Of a stretch of DNA of 64,000 nucleotides, positions 8,293-49,858 are shown one piece after another. The DNA comes from Shouchella rhizosphaerae (GTDB lineage: Bacteria > Bacillota > Bacilli > Bacillales > Bacillaceae_D): the NCBI RefSeq assembly GCF_900142675.1, contig NZ_FRBS01000005.1, positions 187,134 to 251,133 on the forward strand, in the 5' to 3' direction. The position numbers and the translations under genes were made by a program. The notes under the pieces were generated by a model. It did no database searches, was not told the DNA's origin, and saw nothing but the letters and a program-made list of their open reading frames with translations. Numbering within the stretch: the first letter of the stretch is position 1; the number at the start of each line of letters is the position of its first letter.

Positions 8293-8838
8293 ATGTCATT
8301 TTTCCTACTCGTTGCCGTATCTTATGCATGTGGCTGTATAAACGGGGCTTACTATATCGGACATATGAAATACAAACAAGATATTCGCACTTTGGGGAGC
8401 ACGAACGCTGGGGCTCGAAATGCTGGACGTATTTTTGGAAAAAAAGCGTTTATCGGCACAGTCGTCATCGATGCGTTCAAAACAATCATTCCATTGGCCA
8501 TAGGGCAAATATGGCTAGACGTTTCTGAGATCGTTATTGGTGCAATGGCTTTGGCCATACTCATTGGCCATATTTGGCCGCTGCAGTTGCAGCGCTCAGG
8601 TGGAAAAGGAGTCGTCGTTTATTTGGCGGCTGCGCTTGTGCTTGCCCCCCTTGCTTTAGTCGTATGCGGCCTAGCACTTGCTGTTTTGCGCGCTTGCAAA
8701 CGATCGTTTACGGAGGCGGGCTTCATTGCCATTTGTACAATCCCACTCACATTGCTTTGCCAAACTGCATACAGCCTTGCTGGCTTGTTTGCGCTTTTGC
8801 TCATGATTGTGCTAGTTGCTCACAGAAAGGGGCATTGA
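8293..8838 (+). CDS. PlsY-like glycerol-3-phosphate acyltransferase family membrane protein
   Basis: 181 residues, mostly hydrophobic with about five membrane segments. Motif 1 of the PlsY family appears as LGSTNAGARNAGRIFG (normally GSGNxGATN) and motif 2 as GHIWPLQLQRSGGKGV. PlsY transfers an acyl group from acyl-phosphate to glycerol-3-phosphate in the membrane. The protein stops at LLMIVLVAHRKGH, right where the third conserved block (HRxNIxRLxxGxE) should continue, so it is shorter than typical PlsY (about 200) and probably a divergent paralogue, not the housekeeping enzyme. It starts a three-gene operon: the next ATG begins one base after its stop. Confidence 0.8.
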   Translation: MSFFLLVAVSYACGCINGAYYIGHMKYKQDIRTLGSTNAGARNAGRIFGKKAFIGTVVIDAFKTIIPLAIGQIWLDVSEIVIGAMALAILIGHIWPLQLQRSGGKGVVVYLAAALVLAPLALVVCGLALAVLRACKRSFTEAGFIAICTIPLTLLCQTAYSLAGLFALLLMIVLVAHRKGH

Positions 8839-8839
8839 G

Positions 8840-10453
8840 ATGGACACATCTGCCATTACATACAAGATTGCTGATTTAGATGAAGAATTCGATCAAATTC
8901 ATACGTTAAATTACGACACATTTGTCGAAGAGATCCCACAGCATCGCCCAAATACAGATAAGAGGCTCATTGACCGCTTTAATGACGAAAACATATATAT
9001 AATTGCCAAGCGCGGCCAAGAAATTATCGGCATGATTTCCGTTCGCGACACGCGCCCATTTTCGTTAGACAGTAAATTAGAGAACCTTGACTCTTACATA
9101 AACAGCGATGAAAAGCTATGCGAAATTAGGCTGCTTTCCATTAAACAAGCATACCGCAAAGGGGTTGTTTTTTACCGCCTCTGCGAGCAACTCGTTTCTT
9201 ATTGTCTAAAACAAGGATATACGATGGCCCTTATCTCAGGAACAACACGGCAATTAAAGCTTTATAAACGGATTGGCTTTGTGCCGTTTGGACCCATTGT
9301 CGGGTCTGGGGAAGCCCGTTACCAACCGATGTATTTAACAGAAGAAAATTTTAAAGCTTCAACCAAAGCGTTTCAAAAGTTAATGGAACGGCAGCAAGCG
9401 CCTATCCAGCAGTTGTTTTTGCCGGGGCCCGTCACACAACTGCAAGCCGTGCAAGAGGCTTGGGCAAAGGCTCCTGTATCCCACCGGGCCGAAGAATTCC
9501 ATCACGCGATGGCACAAACGAAAGAAAAGTTGCTCCAGCTAACAAATGGCCGTTATGTGGAACTTGCGGTCGGGACAGGGACACTTGCCAATGAGATGGT
9601 AGCAGCTCAACTGTCAACGCTACATCAAAAAGGTGTCATTCTCACAAGCGGTGAATTTGGCGAGCGGTTAGTCAAACAAGCAGAGCGGTGGGGATTATCA
9701 TTTGACCAATTGGCCCATTCCCAAACTGGCCCGGTACCTTACGAAAACATTGAGAAATGGCTAGAGGCCGATTCTGAGATTGGCTGGCTTTGGACTGTCC
9801 ATTGTGAAACGTCGACGGGCCGCCTTTATGCTCTTGACCGCCTTAAAGAGATTTGCGGCAAACATGGCGTTCGTTTATGCCTTGACGCATGCAGCAGCAT
9901 CGGCTCTGTTCCAGTTGACTTATCTGGCGTCTGGCTTGCTAGTTCAGTCAGCGGCAAAGGATTGGCAGCTTATCCCGGACTTGCCCTTGTCTTCCATGAC
10001 GAGCCAGCTTTCGCCAATGATTCGTTGCCTGCCTACCTTGACATTGGCACATATGAACAAGCAGAAAGTGTACCGTTTACCCATTGTTCAAATGGCTTGT
10101 ATGCATTAAATGAAGCACTAAACCATCCGGCTCCGCCATATGTTTCTTTATGTGAGTCCATATTGGCTATACTAGAAGCGAATGGCTTTACAGTAGTGCG
10201 CGGCGAGTCTTTTTCTCCTGCTATCATTACAGTTGATCTTTCTGGCCACTTGTCTGCAAGGGCATTTGGCGACCGTCTCAAACAACACGGCATTCATGTC
10301 AGTTATGAAAGCGCCTATTTACTTGAACGCAATTGGTTCCAGCTAGCATTAATGGGCCATATCGACGCTCGCCTTGCCAAAAAAGCAGTTCAAACCATTG
10401 CTACTATTTATGCAAAAATGAAACAAGAACAGGCGGTCCGCAGTTATGAATGA
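8840..10453 (+). CDS. Fusion of GNAT acyltransferase-like domain and class V aminotransferase
   Basis: 537 residues. Residues 1-180 form a GNAT-type domain whose opening (NYDTFVEEIPQHRPNTDKR) resembles acyl-ACP-using N-acyl amino acid/autoinducer synthases, followed by LLSIKQAYRKGVVFYRLCEQ. From about residue 190 an AGXT/PhnW-like class V aminotransferase follows: FLPGPVTQLQAVQEAW, VGTGTLANEMV, TVHCETSTGRL, LCLDACSSIGSVP and SSVSGKGLAAYPG, where K373 should bind PLP. AAAGGGG precedes ATG at 8840. The gene is coupled to a PlsY-like gene before and an LtaS-like gene after (8-base overlap). A plausible role is making and acylating an amine for an unusual lipid; this is inference. Confidence 0.85.
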   Translation: MDTSAITYKIADLDEEFDQIHTLNYDTFVEEIPQHRPNTDKRLIDRFNDENIYIIAKRGQEIIGMISVRDTRPFSLDSKLENLDSYINSDEKLCEIRLLSIKQAYRKGVVFYRLCEQLVSYCLKQGYTMALISGTTRQLKLYKRIGFVPFGPIVGSGEARYQPMYLTEENFKASTKAFQKLMERQQAPIQQLFLPGPVTQLQAVQEAWAKAPVSHRAEEFHHAMAQTKEKLLQLTNGRYVELAVGTGTLANEMVAAQLSTLHQKGVILTSGEFGERLVKQAERWGLSFDQLAHSQTGPVPYENIEKWLEADSEIGWLWTVHCETSTGRLYALDRLKEICGKHGVRLCLDACSSIGSVPVDLSGVWLASSVSGKGLAAYPGLALVFHDEPAFANDSLPAYLDIGTYEQAESVPFTHCSNGLYALNEALNHPAPPYVSLCESILAILEANGFTVVRGESFSPAIITVDLSGHLSARAFGDRLKQHGIHVSYESAYLLERNWFQLALMGHIDARLAKKAVQTIATIYAKMKQEQAVRSYE

Positions 10454-12284
10454 ACTTAAACATTTTTTAGCAAAACATCTTATTCCTTTAGGTGTTGTTG
10501 CACTTTGGTTGAAAACCGTGATTGTGTCGGCAACGGCTTTTTCGTTGCCTATCCAAAATGGCGTCGACGTCTTTTTGTTGCTGATCGGCCCTCTCGGTTC
10601 GCTTATGCTCTTGCTTGGCTTTAGTTTTTACTTTAGCAAGCATGTTCGCCCGCTCGTGTTTTTGCTTGTTTATCTCTTATGCACAGCGTTGTTGTTTGGG
10701 ACGCTTTTATACTACCGGTTTTACATTGATTTTCTGACCGTGTCCGTCTTCCTGCAATTCAGCAATGTGGGTGGACTCGGATCCAGTACAGCCGAGCTCG
10801 TTTCACCTTATGATTTGTTATTGCTCATCGACTTATTTGTCGTTGCTTGGTTCACCATTAGTGCCAAAATAGAACGACGCTCAATCGAGCGCCCACGCGG
10901 AAAAGGATTTGCCTGGTCAGGTTTGGTGGCGCTCGTGGTGGCACTAGGTGTCAGCCATATTCAAAATCCGTATTTGCTTAAGACCGACTACGCTAGAGAT
11001 GAACTTGTCGCGTCTCTTGGCCTTTATAATTATCAATTGGTCAATCTCGCTCAAGGCATTAGTGCGCCGCTGAAAGAATCGTGGGCCAACGAAGCAACCG
11101 CTTCTGACATAAAAGCGGAAATGCAGGAAAAACCTTCTCCTGACGTGGATGTTTTTGGGCTCGCCCAAGGAAAAAATATCGTAATGATTAGCCTTGAGTC
11201 CACGCAAAATTTCGTTATCGGGCAAACGGTAAATGGCGAAGAACTGACGCCGTTCTTAAACCAATTGATTGAAGAGAGCTTTTATTTTCCAAACATTTAT
11301 GACCAAACCGCACAAGGCAAGTCATCGGATATGGAGTTTATGCTCGATACCGGCTTTTACCCGCTTTCCAGTGGCTCGGCCTTTGTGCGCCGTTATGAAA
11401 ATACATTTCGCTCCCTTCCTCAGATCTTGAAAGAACAAGGGTATACATCGGCCGCTTTCCACGCCAATGACGCGACTTTTTGGAACCGTGAAGCGATGTA
11501 TGAAATGCTAGGATATGACGAGTTTTTCTCAAAAGACGATTATGAGGTAACAGATGAGTTGAGTGTCAACTATGGGCTGAAAGACAAACCCTTTTTTGCC
11601 CAATCGATTGACCATCTTAACACGTTGGAATCGCCATATATGGCTAAATTTATCCCTTTGACGAACCATTTCCCGTTCTTGCTTGAACAAGAGGACCAAT
11701 CAATTGATCCTGCTGATACAGGAGTCGATGTCGTCAATCGCTATGTGACGACCATTCGCTATCAAGATGAAGCGATTGAGCAATTTTTTGCCGATCTCAA
11801 AAAAGAAGGCCATTATGAAGATACCATCTTCTTGTTATACGGCGACCATTACGGGATTTCCCGCCAATATGAAAGCGGCGTTCACACATTGCTTGACCAA
11901 GAAGAAAACACACTAACTCATTTGGACTTGCAAAAAGTACCACTCATTATCCATATTCCTGGGCAAACTGGACAAACGATTGAAACCGAAGGTGGACAAA
12001 TCGATATTCATGCGACACTGCTTCAACTCTTAGGCCTTTCTGCCAATGAAAACTTAACGTTTAGCTACGACTTGTTCACCCGCCCTAGCGACGTGCCGAT
12101 TATCTTTCGCGATGGCCGATTTGTGTCTGAGGAGTATTTGTATGCAGACCATACTTGTTATGACCGTAAAACTGAACAGCCTGTAGAGGAAACATACTGT
12201 GCCAAAGATAAAGAAATTGTCCGAGAGCAGTTGTCGCTCTCTGATGAAATTTTACTTGGCGATCTACTCCGCTTTCTTGACTAA
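10446..12284 (+). CDS. LtaS-like membrane phosphotransferase (sulfatase fold) with Ser nucleophile
   Basis: 612 residues. About five membrane helices (residues 10-195) precede an extracellular sulfatase-type domain. Family motifs are VMISLESTQNF (metal-binding Glu about 250), DQTAQGKSSDMEFML, TNHFPFLL and LLYGDHYGIS (Asp467, His468). In lipoteichoic acid synthases the nucleophile is the Thr of GKTSD; here that position is Ser293. The size and fold match LtaS/YvgJ/YqgS. The gene overlaps the preceding fusion gene by eight bases and ends at a strong terminator, so it is the last gene of a three-gene operon. It likely transfers a phospho-head group from a lipid to an acceptor outside the membrane, but neither is known. 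Confidence 0.88.
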   Translation: MNELKHFLAKHLIPLGVVALWLKTVIVSATAFSLPIQNGVDVFLLLIGPLGSLMLLLGFSFYFSKHVRPLVFLLVYLLCTALLFGTLLYYRFYIDFLTVSVFLQFSNVGGLGSSTAELVSPYDLLLLIDLFVVAWFTISAKIERRSIERPRGKGFAWSGLVALVVALGVSHIQNPYLLKTDYARDELVASLGLYNYQLVNLAQGISAPLKESWANEATASDIKAEMQEKPSPDVDVFGLAQGKNIVMISLESTQNFVIGQTVNGEELTPFLNQLIEESFYFPNIYDQTAQGKSSDMEFMLDTGFYPLSSGSAFVRRYENTFRSLPQILKEQGYTSAAFHANDATFWNREAMYEMLGYDEFFSKDDYEVTDELSVNYGLKDKPFFAQSIDHLNTLESPYMAKFIPLTNHFPFLLEQEDQSIDPADTGVDVVNRYVTTIRYQDEAIEQFFADLKKEGHYEDTIFLLYGDHYGISRQYESGVHTLLDQEENTLTHLDLQKVPLIIHIPGQTGQTIETEGGQIDIHATLLQLLGLSANENLTFSYDLFTRPSDVPIIFRDGRFVSEEYLYADHTCYDRKTEQPVEETYCAKDKEIVREQLSLSDEILLGDLLRFLD

Positions 12285-12291
12285 TTATTAT

Positions 12292-12318
12292 ACACGGCCA
12301 TTGGCCGTGTTTTTTTTC
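12292..12318 (+). terminator. Intrinsic terminator of the PlsY-like/fusion/LtaS-like operon
   Basis: ACACGGCCA and TGGCCGTGT form a 9-bp stem with a one-base centre, followed directly by a run of eight to nine T, eight bases after the stop codon. Confidence 0.9.
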
Positions 12319-42507: not shown

Positions 42508-43775
42508 CTGGTATCCGTCCCTTTCTGGTCAAGGTTTTGGTCAAGTTTCAGCAGCGCATGGAACAACACATTCGCAGCTGCCTCAATGTCACAGAGTGCA
42601 CTTGCTTCTTCAGGGCAATGGCTTTTGCCGCCAATGCTAGGCACAAACAACATGCCACTTCTTGTCACTGCCGCCATATGGGCTGCATCATGTCCAGCCA
42701 TGCTCCCGAGTGTCAGCGTCTTGTAGCCAAGTGAATCGGCTTGCTCCGCCAATGTATCGATTAGTAATTTGTCCATTGGCACAGGCCGTTGCGATAAAAA
42801 CGTTTCTTGCTTTATCGAAACGCCACGTCTCCTTGCGAGTTCTGCAATTTGGCTGTTTAATGCATGGCGGACAGCATCGATTTCTGCGCTTGTTTTGCCA
42901 CGAATTTCGACAACCATTTCCACTTGGCCAGGGATAATATTGGCGGCGTTCGGGCGCACGTCAAGTGTGCCAACTGTTGCGACTACTTCTTCTGCCTGCA
43001 TTTCCGCGGCCGCCTGTTCGACAGCTACAACCACTTCCGCCGCAGCGGCGAGTGCATCCTTACGTCCGGCCATGACAGTCGTCCCCGCATGATTGGCATC
43101 ACCTGTTACAGTTACAAGCTCTCTGTAAATGCCCGTAATGCCAGAAACAATGCCAACAGGAATACTGCTTGTGACTAAGCGTTTCCCTTGTTCAATATGG
43201 ACTTCAAGGTAAGCAGATAAAGGCGGCGCTAACGCGTGCGTGTCCTCAAAGCGATCGGGATCTCCCCCTGCTTGCCTAAGCGCTTCCGTCAACAACAGCT
43301 CATTGTCATCTGTCACACCCTCTAAGTCTTGCTTTGTTAACTTTCCTGCTACTGCCCGGCTGCCAAATGTCGATAAGCCAAACGGGTTCGGCTCCTCTGC
43401 CGTAAAGGAAACGAGTGCGAATGGATGGCGTGTTTCGATTCTTTCTTCGTTCAGTCGTTCCATTACTTCTAAGGCAATGAGAACACCGAGCGCGCCATCA
43501 TACATGCCACCGTTTGGCACCGTATCCATATGGGAGCCAAACGAAATAGCAGGAAGAGGTTGTCGCCCGTTGCGAAAAGCCCATATATTGGCGGCGGGAT
43601 CGCACTTAACATCAAGCCCAAGGCTGACACATTGTGTTTGCAACCATTCCCGAGCAGCGAGTTCCGCCGACGTGAACGTTGTCCGATCTAACCCGCCTTT
43701 CTCATTTTTGCCAAATTGGCCGAGTTCCTCGATCTTCCGTTGCAAGCGAGCACCGTTGATTGTCGGTTTTTTCAA
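42504..43775 (-). CDS. M20 amidohydrolase (AllC/N-carbamoyl amino acid hydrolase type)
   Basis: 423 residues from the TTG at 43775 ([20 protein letters not shown]). Zinc ligands: SFGSHMDTVPNGGMYDGALG (His, Asp), VSFTAEEPNPFG (Glu-Glu), EVHIEQGKRL (His) and a late His in AGHDAAHMA. Family members hydrolyse N-carbamoyl or ureido groups of amino acids, and some act on N-formyl groups. Between hutI and a HutF-like gene it could complete histidine breakdown by removing formyl from glutamate. It overlaps the hutI frame by 74 bases, an unusual length; the start is therefore uncertain. Confidence 0.8.
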   Translation of the reverse strand: MKKPTINGARLQRKIEELGQFGKNEKGGLDRTTFTSAELAAREWLQTQCVSLGLDVKCDPAANIWAFRNGRQPLPAISFGSHMDTVPNGGMYDGALGVLIALEVMERLNEERIETRHPFALVSFTAEEPNPFGLSTFGSRAVAGKLTKQDLEGVTDDNELLLTEALRQAGGDPDRFEDTHALAPPLSAYLEVHIEQGKRLVTSSIPVGIVSGITGIYRELVTVTGDANHAGTTVMAGRKDALAAAAEVVVAVEQAAAEMQAEEVVATVGTLDVRPNAANIIPGQVEMVVEIRGKTSAEIDAVRHALNSQIAELARRRGVSIKQETFLSQRPVPMDKLLIDTLAEQADSLGYKTLTLGSMAGHDAAHMAAVTRSGMLFVPSIGGKSHCPEEASALCDIEAAANVLFHALLKLDQNLDQKGTDTR

Positions 43776-45045
43776 GTAACACACCGCCTTCCACAACGAT
43801 TTTCCCTGCTTTCATGACTGTATCGACTCGATTAACAGCATAGTTATACTGCAATGTTTGATAGTTGGGCGCGTCAAATAGCACGAGATCAGCGTTTTTG
43901 CCTGCTTCAATGCTGCCGATGTCCTTCGCTCGGCCAATGGCGTGTGCGGCATTGATCGTGGAAGCGGCAAGCACCTCTTCTGGCGTCATTTTCATTGTCA
44001 GGCAAGCCAAATTCATTATGAATGGCAATGACTCAGTCGGCGATGAACCTGGGTTACGGTCTGTCGATAAGGCAACTGGTACTCCTGCTTCGATCATCGC
44101 CCGAGCATTGGCGGGCTCGGTCATTAGAAAAAAGGCTGTTCCTGGCAGAAGCACGGCGATAACGCCTGCCTCGGCCATTTGTTCGATGCCTGTTGGTGAG
44201 GCCTTTAACAAATGGTCTGCACTGACTGCCCCGACTTTTGCGGCAAGCTCAGCCCCTCCAAAGGAAACCAACTCATCGGCGTGGATTTTCGGCTTTAGCC
44301 CATGCTTTTTCCCTTCCTCCAAAATGTATTGCGATTGGGCGACCGTAAAGACGCCCTCTTCACAAAAGACATCACAAAACTCAGCTAAGTTTTCAGCTGC
44401 GACTTGGGGAATCATTTCTTCTGCCACTAATTGTACAAACCCATCAGGATCCTGTTTCCACTCAGGCGGAATCGCATGTGCCCCCATAAAAGTCGAGACG
44501 ACGTCTACTGGGTGTTCATTGTTTAATTGTTGAGCGACACGGAGCTGTTTTAGTTCAGCGTCTGTCGCTAACCCGTAGCCGCTTTTCGCCTCAACGGTCG
44601 TCACCCCGTGCTTCAAAAAACGGTCAAGCCGCAGCCGCGATTCATGGGCCAACTGGTCAGCAGTGGCTGCTCTCGTGCTTTTTGTTGTGCTTAAAATGCC
44701 GCCGCCTGCCTGTAAAATGCTCATATACGACTTGCCTTTCAAACGCATCGTCAATTCTTGTTCACGGCTGCCAGCAAAGACGAGATGTGTATGAGGGTCG
44801 ACGAGTCCAGGCGTGAGGATTTTCCCCGTTGCCTCAATCGTTTTCACCTTTCCAGAACGTTTTTGCAAGTAATGACGAGCATCTGCGTCTGTACCGGCAA
44901 AGGCAATCTTCTCTCCCTCAACGATGACACTCCCCCGTTCAATGACGCCAATTTCAGATAAGTCCTCTCCTACTTTTGGTTTGTCGCTTGCTCCGGCAAC
45001 AGTGACAACTTGTTCAGCTTCCTTGAGATATAAAAGTTCAGCCAT
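43702..45045 (-). CDS. hutI: Imidazolonepropionase HutI
   Basis: 447 residues. [20 protein letters not shown] (HxH), [36 protein letters not shown] (His, Glu) and [17 protein letters not shown] (Asp) are HutI signatures. The enzyme opens imidazolone-5-propionate to N-formimino-L-glutamate with a metal. AGGGAGGG precedes ATG; the start overlaps the hutU end by eight bases. The protein is about 25 residues longer than usual: after [14 protein letters not shown] the tail [18 protein letters not shown] runs through the next gene's start. Confidence 0.94.
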
Positions 45046-46717
45046 TTTCTTTTCCCTCCCTTGCAAGGGCTGGAATGACAATGCCTGTTGCTTTTGCCGT
45101 TTCGATAGCTTTTTGATAACCAGCATCGGCATGGCGAACGACGCCTAGGCCTGGATCCGTTGTTAGCACACGCTCCAAACGCCGTGCCGCTTCCGCTGTC
45201 CCATCTGCGACGACAACCATGCCAGCGTGAAGGGAGTAGCCCATACCGACGCCGCCACCATGATGGACAGATACCCAGCTTGCCCCTGCAGCTGTATTCA
45301 CAAGTGCATTTAAAATTGGCCAATCAGCAACGGCGTCACTGCCGTCTTTCATTGCTTCTGTTTCCCGATTCGGCGAGGCGACCGAGCCTGCATCAAGGTG
45401 GTCACGTCCGATCACAATGGGGGCGGACAATTCTCCAGAAGCGACCATTTCATTAATCCGTTTGCCAAAACGGGCACGTTCCCCATAGCCGAGCCAGCAA
45501 ATCCTTGCCGGAAGGCCTTGGAAAGAAATATGGCGACGTGCCATGCGGATCCACTGGCATAACGGTTCATTGTCGGCAAACTCTTGCAAGATCACTTCAT
45601 CCGTTTTATCAATATCTGCTGGATCGCCAGAAAGGGCCACCCAGCGGAAAGGCCCTTTGCCTTCGCAAAATTGCGGGCGGATATATGCAGGAACAAAACC
45701 AGGAAATGAAAAGGCGTCACGAATCCCTTCATCAAAAGCAACTTGGCGAATATTATTGCCATAATCGAACACGATCGCGCCACGCTTTTTTAACTCAAGC
45801 ATCGCTTCAACATGCTCGGCCATACTCTTTTTCGCAAGGCTAATGTAAGCTTGGGGATCTTGCCTTCGCAGCACTTGCCCTTGTTCAAGGGTGAACCCTT
45901 TTGGCAAATAGCCATTCAAAGGATCATGCGCAGACGTTTGATCAGTGACAATGTCTGGAACAAACCCGCGATCAAGCATTTCTGGCAACACTTCAGCCGC
46001 ATTGCCGACTAAGCCGATTGAAAGGGGGATGCCTTCCTTTTTCGCGAGTTCTGCTTCCTCAATGGCCTCTGTTAGCGTATGGGCGACAATATCCAAATAG
46101 TTGGTCTCCATACGTTTGTCGATCCGGGAACGGTCCACGTCAACGCAAATAGCCACCCCATTTGCCATCGTGACCGCTAATGGTTGGGCGCCGCCCATGC
46201 CTCCTAATCCAGCTGTTACGGTAATCGTCCCTTTTAATGAGCCGCCAAAATGTTGTCGTGCACATTCGGCAAACGTCTCGTAAGTCCCTTGAACAATGCC
46301 TTGACTACCAATATAAATCCAACTTCCAGCTGTCATTTGCCCGTACATGGTTAAGCCTTTCTTATCAAGCTCATGAAAGGTATCCCAATTCGCCCAAGCA
46401 GGGACAAGGTTGGAATTGGCAAGCAACACCCGCGGAGCATCTTCATGTGTTTTAAAGACAGCAACCGGTTTCCCAGATTGAATGAGCAACGTTTCATCGT
46501 TATCAAGCGTTGTTAACGATGAAACAATACTATGATAAGACGGCCAATTGCGCGCAGCCTTGCCAATCCCGCCGTAGACAACTAATTGATCTGGATGCTC
46601 TGCTACTTCTTCATCTAAATTATTCATAAGCATACGGAGCGCTGCTTCCTGCACCCACCCTTTGGCCGTTAAGGCAGTGCCTCTTTTCGCACGAATCGGT
46701 TCATTGTTCAGATTCAC
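45038..46717 (-). CDS. hutU: Urocanate hydratase HutU
   Basis: 559 residues (family 550-560). MILGRE-type urocanase features are clear: [20 protein letters not shown], the NAD-binding [19 protein letters not shown], and [13 protein letters not shown]-like [19 protein letters not shown], with the conserved Cys of [10 protein letters not shown]. HutU converts urocanate to imidazolonepropionate using tightly bound NAD. A GTG start follows GGGGG. It heads a five-gene leftward operon; no hutH (histidase) or hutP lies in the window. Confidence 0.95.
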
Positions 46718-48595: not shown

Positions 48596-49858
48596 CTATA
48601 CCGACTGACTTTGCACTGGCTTTTGAACAAACAAAGAGGCTTTTTCAATGGCCGGAAGCTTTCGAAGGACTGGGTGAACCAACCAGCTGGCACTAAATAA
48701 CAACATCGCTATCCCACAAAACGCCACAGGCAAGACGGGGGTAAAGGTAGAGCCAAGCGCCCCACCTATAAGGGAACCAACCGGCACACCGACTGCTGCT
48801 GCACTGGATAGGACTGTCACGACACGGCCAATCATCGCTTCTTCCACTTGTTGTTGGATGGACGAAAAAATGAGGATATTAAAGATGCCAATCGCGATAC
48901 TGCCGATACAGAAGCAAGGCAAAGAAAAGTAAACGGGCAGAAAAGCAGTACCAAGCCAGGCAATGCCGGTACTAGAAAAACCAATGACCGTTAGCAGCCC
49001 GAAACGGCATTCTTTGACTATCGGAGTCACTAGTGTGCCAATCATGACGCCAAGTGACAATCCAGCCAAATAAAAACCATAAATGGCTTCACTATTGCCT
49101 TTCATTAATGTAAAGGCAGGCAAATTCGGAACCATTACGCCCAGCGCCATATTAATAAAAATAATCGACCCAATCATTTTTGGGATAAGCGATTGAGAAA
49201 TATACGTCATCCCTGCCTTTAAATCTGTTTTGTAGGCGACCACGCTTTGTTTCATGCCTTGTCTGTCTTGAGGGACAGTGTTTTGTCTAAAGCGGAATAA
49301 TGTATACGTTAATGATGACAACAAATGGCAAACCGCTGTAATTAAAATGGCTTGAACAGGGCCGATGAAAGCAACAAGAACACCGGCCCCAGCAACAAAA
49401 GCGATACCCATTCCTTCCCTCACCGTTTGCAAATACGCATTTGCTTTAATAATGTTTTCTTTACCAACAATAATTGGCATAATCGTTGATTCGATCGGGT
49501 ATGTAAACTTGGCTAGCAAAGAAACAGCAAATAGCAATGTGATGACATAATAAACGTTCAGGCCAATCGTTGCGTAGAACAGTGGTAGTGTAAATAGCAA
49601 TGCTGACTTCAACACTTCGCATACGATTAAGCCTTTTTTGTACGTGACGTATCGAGCAAATGGCGCGATTAAGAAAGCCAACGCATTTGCCAATGTTACT
49701 GCGAAATAAGCGAGACCTGAATAAAAGACATTTCCGCTCAAATAGAGGACAAGCAACATACCCGAAACCGCATAAACGCCTGCACCAATTCCATTAATAA
49801 ACACGCCAGAAAGCAAAATCATAAAATTTCTTTCACGTAAAAATGATCGTGTTTTCAT
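48596..49858 (-). CDS. MFS transporter (MefA/EntS-like efflux group)
   Basis: 420 residues with about twelve membrane segments. GVFINGIGAGVYAVSGMLLV and FAVTLANALAFLIAPFARYV followed by KKGLIVCEVLKSALLF resemble the macrolide/siderophore exporter-type MFS_3 group. A conserved AVGVPVGSLIGGALGSTFTP is in the second half. GAGGGG precedes ATG. It is divergent from a two-component operon with an Fnr-like box between. Substrate unknown. Confidence 0.85.
   Translation of the reverse strand: MKTRSFLRERNFMILLSGVFINGIGAGVYAVSGMLLVLYLSGNVFYSGLAYFAVTLANALAFLIAPFARYVTYKKGLIVCEVLKSALLFTLPLFYATIGLNVYYVITLLFAVSLLAKFTYPIESTIMPIIVGKENIIKANAYLQTVREGMGIAFVAGAGVLVAFIGPVQAILITAVCHLLSSLTYTLFRFRQNTVPQDRQGMKQSVVAYKTDLKAGMTYISQSLIPKMIGSIIFINMALGVMVPNLPAFTLMKGNSEAIYGFYLAGLSLGVMIGTLVTPIVKECRFGLLTVIGFSSTGIAWLGTAFLPVYFSLPCFCIGSIAIGIFNILIFSSIQQQVEEAMIGRVVTVLSSAAAVGVPVGSLIGGALGSTFTPVLPVAFCGIAMLLFSASWLVHPVLRKLPAIEKASLFVQKPVQSQSV

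Follow-up and report, generated by a model that had tools for sequence, protein, structure and literature searches.

The locus analyzed here raises the question of what a PlsY-like acyltransferase, a protein in which a GNAT domain is fused to a class V aminotransferase, and an LtaS-like membrane phosphotransferase could make together. The three genes are located in a 64,000-nucleotide stretch of the genome of Shouchella rhizosphaerae (contig NZ_FRBS01000005.1), hereinafter the window. The comparisons described below favor, with moderate confidence, the view that the product of the operon is a lipid in which serinol (2-amino-1,3-propanediol) forms the backbone, with the PlsY partner O-acylating the intermediate to an amide lipid. 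The activity of N-acyl serinol synthases has already been reported; the new element is the PlsY partner of the fusion.

The PlsY-like protein of a divergent clade (181 amino acids (aa); 8293..8838, plus strand; PF02660) is followed, after a gap of 1 base, by the GNAT-aminotransferase fusion (537 aa; 8840..10453, plus strand), predicted to act as an N-acyl serinol(-phosphate) synthase, and the fusion gene overlaps by 8 bases that for the LtaS-like phosphotransferase (612 aa; 10446..12284, plus strand). All three open reading frames (ORFs) are on one strand, in the very arrangement that the initial annotation described. The start of the fusion is ATG 8840, the mechanical ORF opening earlier, at TTG 8816. 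Downstream of the last stop, there is a hairpin resembling an intrinsic terminator (12292-12310; 8 pairs, 6 of them G-C) that is followed by a T-run (12292..12317 in all, plus strand); the terminator scan returned 5 sites compared to a mean of 5.7 in shuffled sequences, that is, no excess, and the weight of this hairpin accordingly comes from its position after the last stop. The same sequence scan detected no sigma-70-like promoter upstream of the operon on the plus strand. All three proteins score below the NCBIfam cut-offs for canonical PlsY, PhnW, and LtaS. The PlsY-like protein belongs to PF02660 (110.3 bits, cut-off 24.1) and falls under the curated cut-offs of TIGR00023 (77.2 against 137.2) and NF001254 (87.5 against 199), and the second PlsY of the same genome reaches 183 bits compared to 110 for the operon copy. 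Because the genome encodes this better-scoring PlsY and two further LtaS paralogs, the operon members are, judging by sequence, divergent paralogs and not the housekeeping copies.

The fusion protein matches the Pfam families FeeM/Acetyltransf_5 and Aminotran_5. Its N-terminal GNAT or N-acyl synthase domain (FeeM, PF13444, GNAT; residues ~20-166; 8897..9337, plus strand) scores 36.3 bits with FeeM (cut-off 27) and 25.9 bits with PF13444 (cut-off 22.4; 29.7 bits in the genome search), the family that includes the reported human-microbiome N-acyl synthases (PMC9762135). For the class V aminotransferase domain (residues ~192-521; 9413..10402, plus strand), the best NCBIfam match is the PhnW-AepZ model TIGR03301, at 141.1 bits, far under the cut-off of 360.8. 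The pyridoxal phosphate (PLP) lysine is kept as Lys373 (codon 9956-9958) and, together with Asp349, Glu323, His215, and Gln501, is invariant in all 33 aligned fusion members. The fold family, the PLP lysine, Asp349, and the HxETSTG motif are shared with PhnW/AepZ and AGT, from which the fusion differs by its scores below the cut-off, by the lack of a phosphonate pathway in the genomes checked, and by Gln501 (codon 10340-10342). The latter position is occupied by Arg in all five relatives shown from the PDB (7e7g, 1vjo, 2dr1, 9os7, and 1m32), of which 1m32 and 7e7g are 2-aminoethylphosphonate transaminases. This Arg (Arg340 in 1m32) is the carboxylate- or phosphonate-binding residue of the family, and its replacement by Gln would fit a substrate that lacks a carboxylate, such as dihydroxyacetone phosphate (DHAP).

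The initial annotation had compared this domain with AGXT/PhnW aminotransferases. PhnW-like, phosphonate-type chemistry is not supported, either by the Arg to Gln replacement or by gene content: phosphoenolpyruvate (PEP) mutase scores over the cut-off in none of 36 fusion-bearing genomes, the weaker matches in 11 of these being taken for other members of the superfamily, and on these grounds a route to N-acyl 2-aminoethylphosphonate was rejected. Conversion of DHAP to serinol phosphate has precedents: human PSAT1, a class V enzyme, catalyzes it slowly (PMC9283133), and the reaction is reported for RtxA of Bradyrhizobium (PMC3222319). The N-terminal domain of RtxA, the DHAP aminotransferase of Bradyrhizobium elkanii, resembles the fusion by this reported reaction, and the comparison extends to the way the enzyme works only.

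The closest described proteins are the N-acyl serinol synthases (hm-NAS) of Desulfitobacterium hafniense DP7, Bacillus sp. 2_A_57_CT2, and Gemella, which are, like the fusion, of the PF13444-type GNAT kind that depends on acyl-acyl carrier protein (acyl-ACP). In Escherichia coli, the genes of the first two are reported to yield N-palmitoyl serinol (PMC9605164), and N-acyl serinol is listed for Gemella too (PMC10666787; PMC11271093). Matches to the fusion profile in a sample of 398 genomes of the phylum, including some Bacilli (E <= 1e-60), were found in G000 and in two genomes outside Bacilli, G812 and G850. These two encode reductive dehalogenases scoring over the cut-off and are inferred to be Desulfitobacterium-like; in each, the fusion is the sole PF13444 match in the genome search. 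Given this and the report on D. hafniense, the fusion is probably an N-acyl serinol synthase. In the literature searched, the previous statement that no described system has this set is borne out for the operon; the fusion, by contrast, matches the synthases reported in PMC9605164. The reports on hm-NAS deal with a single gene and free N-acyl serinol, whereas here the gene comes with a dedicated PlsY and, often, with LtaS. In the open-access literature searched, no text joins PlsY with serinol lipids (the sole text match was 'serinolysis'), a bacterial serinol phospholipid is not named, and the combination of the three families was not found; the publications retrieved include reviews of serinol and of N-acyl serinol in its role of host ligand.

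The fusion is not a single-genome artefact. Of 100 related genomes, 14, that of the window among them, encode it at near full length (the other 13 proteins being 42-97% identical to it), and in one further relative, G027, it is split in two pieces. The window's genome is S. clausii-like: the fusion protein is 97% identical to that of G010, and 94% and 93% identical to S. tritolerans and S. clausii records, respectively. The fusion profile has matches at E <= 1e-50 in 56 of 398 evenly drawn genomes of Bacilli. With matches to the aminotransferase only, G202, G212, G232, G253, and G273 were dropped before counting, which leaves 51 fusion-bearing genomes; these include G439, whose copy is a fragment located where a contig ends, and G318, in which the fusion is broken. 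The full three-gene set is present in Cytobacillus spongiae (L033); Bacillus sp. 2_A_57_CT2 belongs to the same genus. The five dropped genomes (family f80) and locus L047 encode proteins of ~617-623 aa, in which a different N-terminal part precedes a class V aminotransferase related to that of the fusion; these are possibly phosphonate-type fusions.

Among the 45 fusion-bearing genomes in which neighborhoods were inspected, a PlsY gene is located directly upstream of the fusion, on the same strand, in 33 (32 identified by script and G423 by coordinates). For the 51 fusion-bearing Bacilli as a whole, coordinates place PlsY next to the fusion in at least 35 and apart from it in 12, among the matches listed, which do not extend to G180, G318, G327, and G336. 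Both G812 and G850 have PlsY directly upstream as well. Two or more PF02660 genes are found in all 51 fusion-bearing Bacilli compared to 81 of the 347 fusion-free ones (Fisher p 1.4e-28, relatedness being ignored; copy numbers were transcribed by hand). The comparison within family f62 is considered fairer than this pooled test: all 23 fusion-bearing members have two PlsY copies and all 14 fusion-free members have one. The two genes also decay together. In G005 (L046), a congener, remnants of PlsY and the fusion are found beside an intact LtaS gene, a natural loss of the pathway, and in G027 both PlsY and the fusion are broken. Given this co-occurrence and joint decay, PlsY and the fusion are the functional unit and LtaS is an add-on. 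The claim that one conserved operon joins amine formation, N-acylation, and PlsY-type acyl transfer is supported by these data; as for the expected co-occurrence of all three families, it was found for PlsY with the fusion but not for LtaS, which is not obligate.

In 11 of the 12 non-adjacent genomes, there is an unlinked PlsY that scores 165-180 bits with the operon-PlsY profile, and the six of these that were put on a tree all group with operon PlsYs. A DegV-family (FakB-like) gene follows the unlinked PlsY in all seven loci compared, as assigned by blastp clustering of the seven and a Pfam run on one of them. Acyl-phosphate bound by FakB is a substrate of PlsY (PMC9136124), and the DegV neighbor is consistent with the use of acyl-phosphate by the divergent PlsY. 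Six loci (L090-L095; G196, G365, G185, G406, G312, and G226) represent a lineage with the fusion and without an adjacent PlsY; in L092-L095, the fusion is preceded, at a distance of 13-17 bases, by a gene of one flavin adenine dinucleotide (FAD)-oxidoreductase cluster (ThiO-like, under the cut-off), which makes this a different variant of the operon. In L033, L038, and L039, the PlsY gene is preceded by a gene of one cluster, the L033 member of which matches TIGR02206, a TMEM164-related membrane acyltransferase family.

In a tree of 45 sequences, 20 operon and 7 unlinked PlsYs are split from the housekeeping ones with support of 99/95. In a second tree, with the PlsY of known structure, aaPlsY (5xj5), added, the housekeeping clade is supported at 100/99; within the divergent PlsYs, the branches of this tree are weakly supported, and only the housekeeping split was relied on. 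The 27 divergent PlsYs of the residue counts include L116, which comes from a fusion-free genome (G206), and L130, a fragment from G204, was omitted from the second tree and from the residue counts. The bit score alone was rejected as a test for divergent PlsYs in favor of trees and adjacency because housekeeping-like proteins reach ~162 bits and true operon members drop to ~148.

According to the structural report on aaPlsY (PMC5700162), the phosphate of glycerol 3-phosphate (G3P) is clamped by Ser35, Arg45, Lys104, and Asn180, its 2-OH is contacted by Ser142 and His177, and acyl-phosphate is held by His92, Thr41, and loop 3. The divergent PlsYs share with aaPlsY the PF02660 fold, the GGKG loop, Ser35 and His177 (27/27 each), and Asn37, His92, and Lys104 (26/27 each), and Arg45 is kept in 18 of 27. 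By contrast, Ser142 is present in 0 of 27 (Gly in 17, Met in 9, Ala in 1) compared to 13 of 17 housekeeping PlsYs, and Asn180 is lost in 21 (kept in 6, Asp in 10), being present in all 17 housekeeping proteins. The Thr41 position holds Arg in 22 and Thr in 5 of the divergent PlsYs, and Thr or Ser in all 17 housekeeping ones. The four housekeeping-set proteins without Ser142 have Val and are a further paralog group; such a third, very divergent group with a long branch and Val at this position is represented by L131-L134 (G365, G339, G196, and G206). The window PlsY retains Ser35, Arg45, Lys104, and His177 and has Gly at the positions of both Ser142 (Gly143, codon 8719-8721) and Asn180, so that the full G3P pocket is absent; the Thr41 position is taken by Arg42 (codon 8416-8418). 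A largely kept acyl-phosphate site, with His92, Lys104, and Asn37, combined with loss of the contact at position 2 is what would be needed for an acceptor that is N-acylated at that position. The idea of a 2-amido product was formed before the PlsY residues were read.

The LtaS-like protein (PF00884, 145 bits) is the third LtaS paralog of the genome and scores 623-624 bits with NF053595, under the cut-off of 970, the two others scoring 1010 and 811 bits. Its whole catalytic domain aligns with the LtaS structures 2w8d and 4uoo, and the GDHYG metal motif is kept; it differs from these by the score below the cut-off and by Ser in place of the catalytic Thr (GKSSD replacing GKTSD), a change that, among the 13 operon-type sequences compared, is found in the Shouchella loci only. 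LtaS is directly downstream of the fusion in 14 of the 45 genomes and not next to it in 31, and was rejected as a fixed operon member on this count.

Put together, these observations suggest the following pathway. The aminotransferase domain would convert DHAP to serinol phosphate, which the fused GNAT domain would N-acylate, presumably with acyl-ACP, as could be expected from the N-acyl serinol that very probable homologs are reported to yield in E. coli. Next, the divergent PlsY would use acyl-phosphate to acylate the hydroxyl that is still free in N-acyl serinol phosphate (or N-acyl serinol); the product, now with two acyl chains, would be an analog of phosphatidic acid (or diacylglycerol) with an amide-linked 2-acyl chain; the linkage, the co-occurrence, and the active-site changes all point to this step. 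Where present, LtaS might use the amide lipid outside the membrane as an acceptor or anchor, or as the phosphoglycerol donor, although we consider such passing of phosphoglycerol to or from the amide lipid unlikely. More broadly, it is tentatively suggested that the fusion and its dedicated PlsY provide many Bacilli and Desulfitobacterium with a second type of phospholipid, a serinol-based 2-amido phosphatidic acid, as the source of amide-linked membrane lipids or of a lipoteichoic acid anchor, with free N-acyl serinols being spill-over or breakdown products.

Several alternatives have to be weighed against this pathway. The pathway could end with free N-acyl serinol, secreted as an amphiphile or signal in line with the microbiome reports; the PlsY-like protein would then have a helper role, either making lysophosphatidic acid or using up acyl-phosphate. 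This is unlikely: N-acyl serinol is indeed the product reported from E. coli, and likewise for Gemella, and divergent PlsYs exist without the fusion in 10 genomes, but the E. coli host lacks the native partner gene, and an ordinary lysophosphatidic acid synthase would leave unexplained both the tight linkage of PlsY with the fusion and the changed 2-OH pocket. The initial annotation favored an aminated, N-acylated headgroup that would be formed by PhnW-like chemistry and exported by LtaS. In favor of this, PhnW-AepZ is the best NCBIfam match of the aminotransferase domain (141 bits), and LtaS occupies the third position in the window operon and follows the fusion in 14 of 45 genomes. With the PhnW score under the cut-off, the substrate Arg replaced, no PEP mutase over the cut-off among 36 genomes, and no LtaS adjoining 31 of 45 fusions, this is very improbable, and a changed backbone, serinol for glycerol, is a better reading than a new headgroup. 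Finally, the order of reactions or the acceptor could differ: the fusion might act second, on DHAP or serinol phosphate that the PlsY-like protein has already acylated, to the same product, or the acceptor might be unphosphorylated N-acyl serinol, with LtaS adding phosphoglycerol to diacyl serinol. The partial loss of the phosphate clamp (Asn180 in 6/27, Arg45 in 18/27) and the downstream LtaS in 14 of 45 genomes would fit such variants, which nevertheless appear improbable given that Ser35 (27/27) and Lys104 (26/27) of the clamp are kept and that 31 of 45 fusions have no LtaS beside them.

Other observations weigh against the serinol lipid pathway itself. The fusion lacks an adjacent PlsY in 12 of 45 loci, and G204 has the fusion without a clear divergent PlsY: apart from a PlsY fragment, it encodes a PlsY of the housekeeping group, the gene for which adjoins gpsA and an EngA-type GTPase gene. 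Conversely, 10 of the 347 fusion-free Bacilli carry a divergent PlsY (>163 bits with the operon profile) that falls outside the housekeeping clade, and a relaxed search of these genomes returned aminotransferase-only matches or none. These PlsYs share the residue changes, the nine beyond L116 likewise lacking Ser142, and the changes are thus not tied to N-acyl serinol alone; their neighbors include genes for DegV (f49), a desaturase and DesK (L149, L150), and an MFS protein (L143, L144). The divergent PlsY kind may therefore act on a different acceptor, or it may have persisted after the fusion was lost. A stop interrupts the PlsY located upstream of the fusion in G850. The losses of Asn180 and Arg45 imply that the acceptor may carry no phosphate. 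How the amino donor would bind without the carboxylate-binding Arg is not explained by the pathway; the candidate replacement, Arg216, is kept in 33 of 33 aligned fusion members and replaced by Gln in L032. The Desulfitobacterium identity of G812 and G850 leans on the reductive dehalogenases, and AlphaFold2, run with three sequences, gave a mean predicted local distance difference test (pLDDT) score of 35.8, that is, no usable structure model.

Elsewhere in the window, on the minus strand, a urocanase gene overlaps an amidohydrolase gene, with genes for an M20 peptidase and a further amidohydrolase downstream (43705-46717), an arrangement that resembles histidine degradation. Also on the minus strand, an ORF of 420 aa (48599-49858) is located between genes for an AraC-type regulator and a histidine kinase and has no Pfam match at E <= 1e-10.

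N-acyl serinols are agonists of GPR119 and act on this human gut receptor. If the serinol lipid pathway is correct, an enzyme of a host-active signaling lipid would gain a native role in membrane lipid synthesis, PlsY, which performs the committed step of bacterial phospholipid synthesis, would gain a paralog with a new acceptor, and the free N-acyl serinols would arise from a membrane lipid by spill-over or breakdown, which could explain why bacteria make them. Neither mild alkali nor phospholipases acting at position 2 would cleave the amide lipid, which could have been overlooked because its mass is only ~0.98 Da below that of its ester twin; an amide-linked phospholipid in Gram-positive bacteria would be directly testable by lipidomics. 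In one review, a conversion of N-acyl serinols to phospholipid-like molecules is raised only as a speculation, and for host enzymes (PMC12594153); in contrast, the bacterial genes themselves appear to be set for the conversion of N-acyl serinol to a phospholipid-like product.

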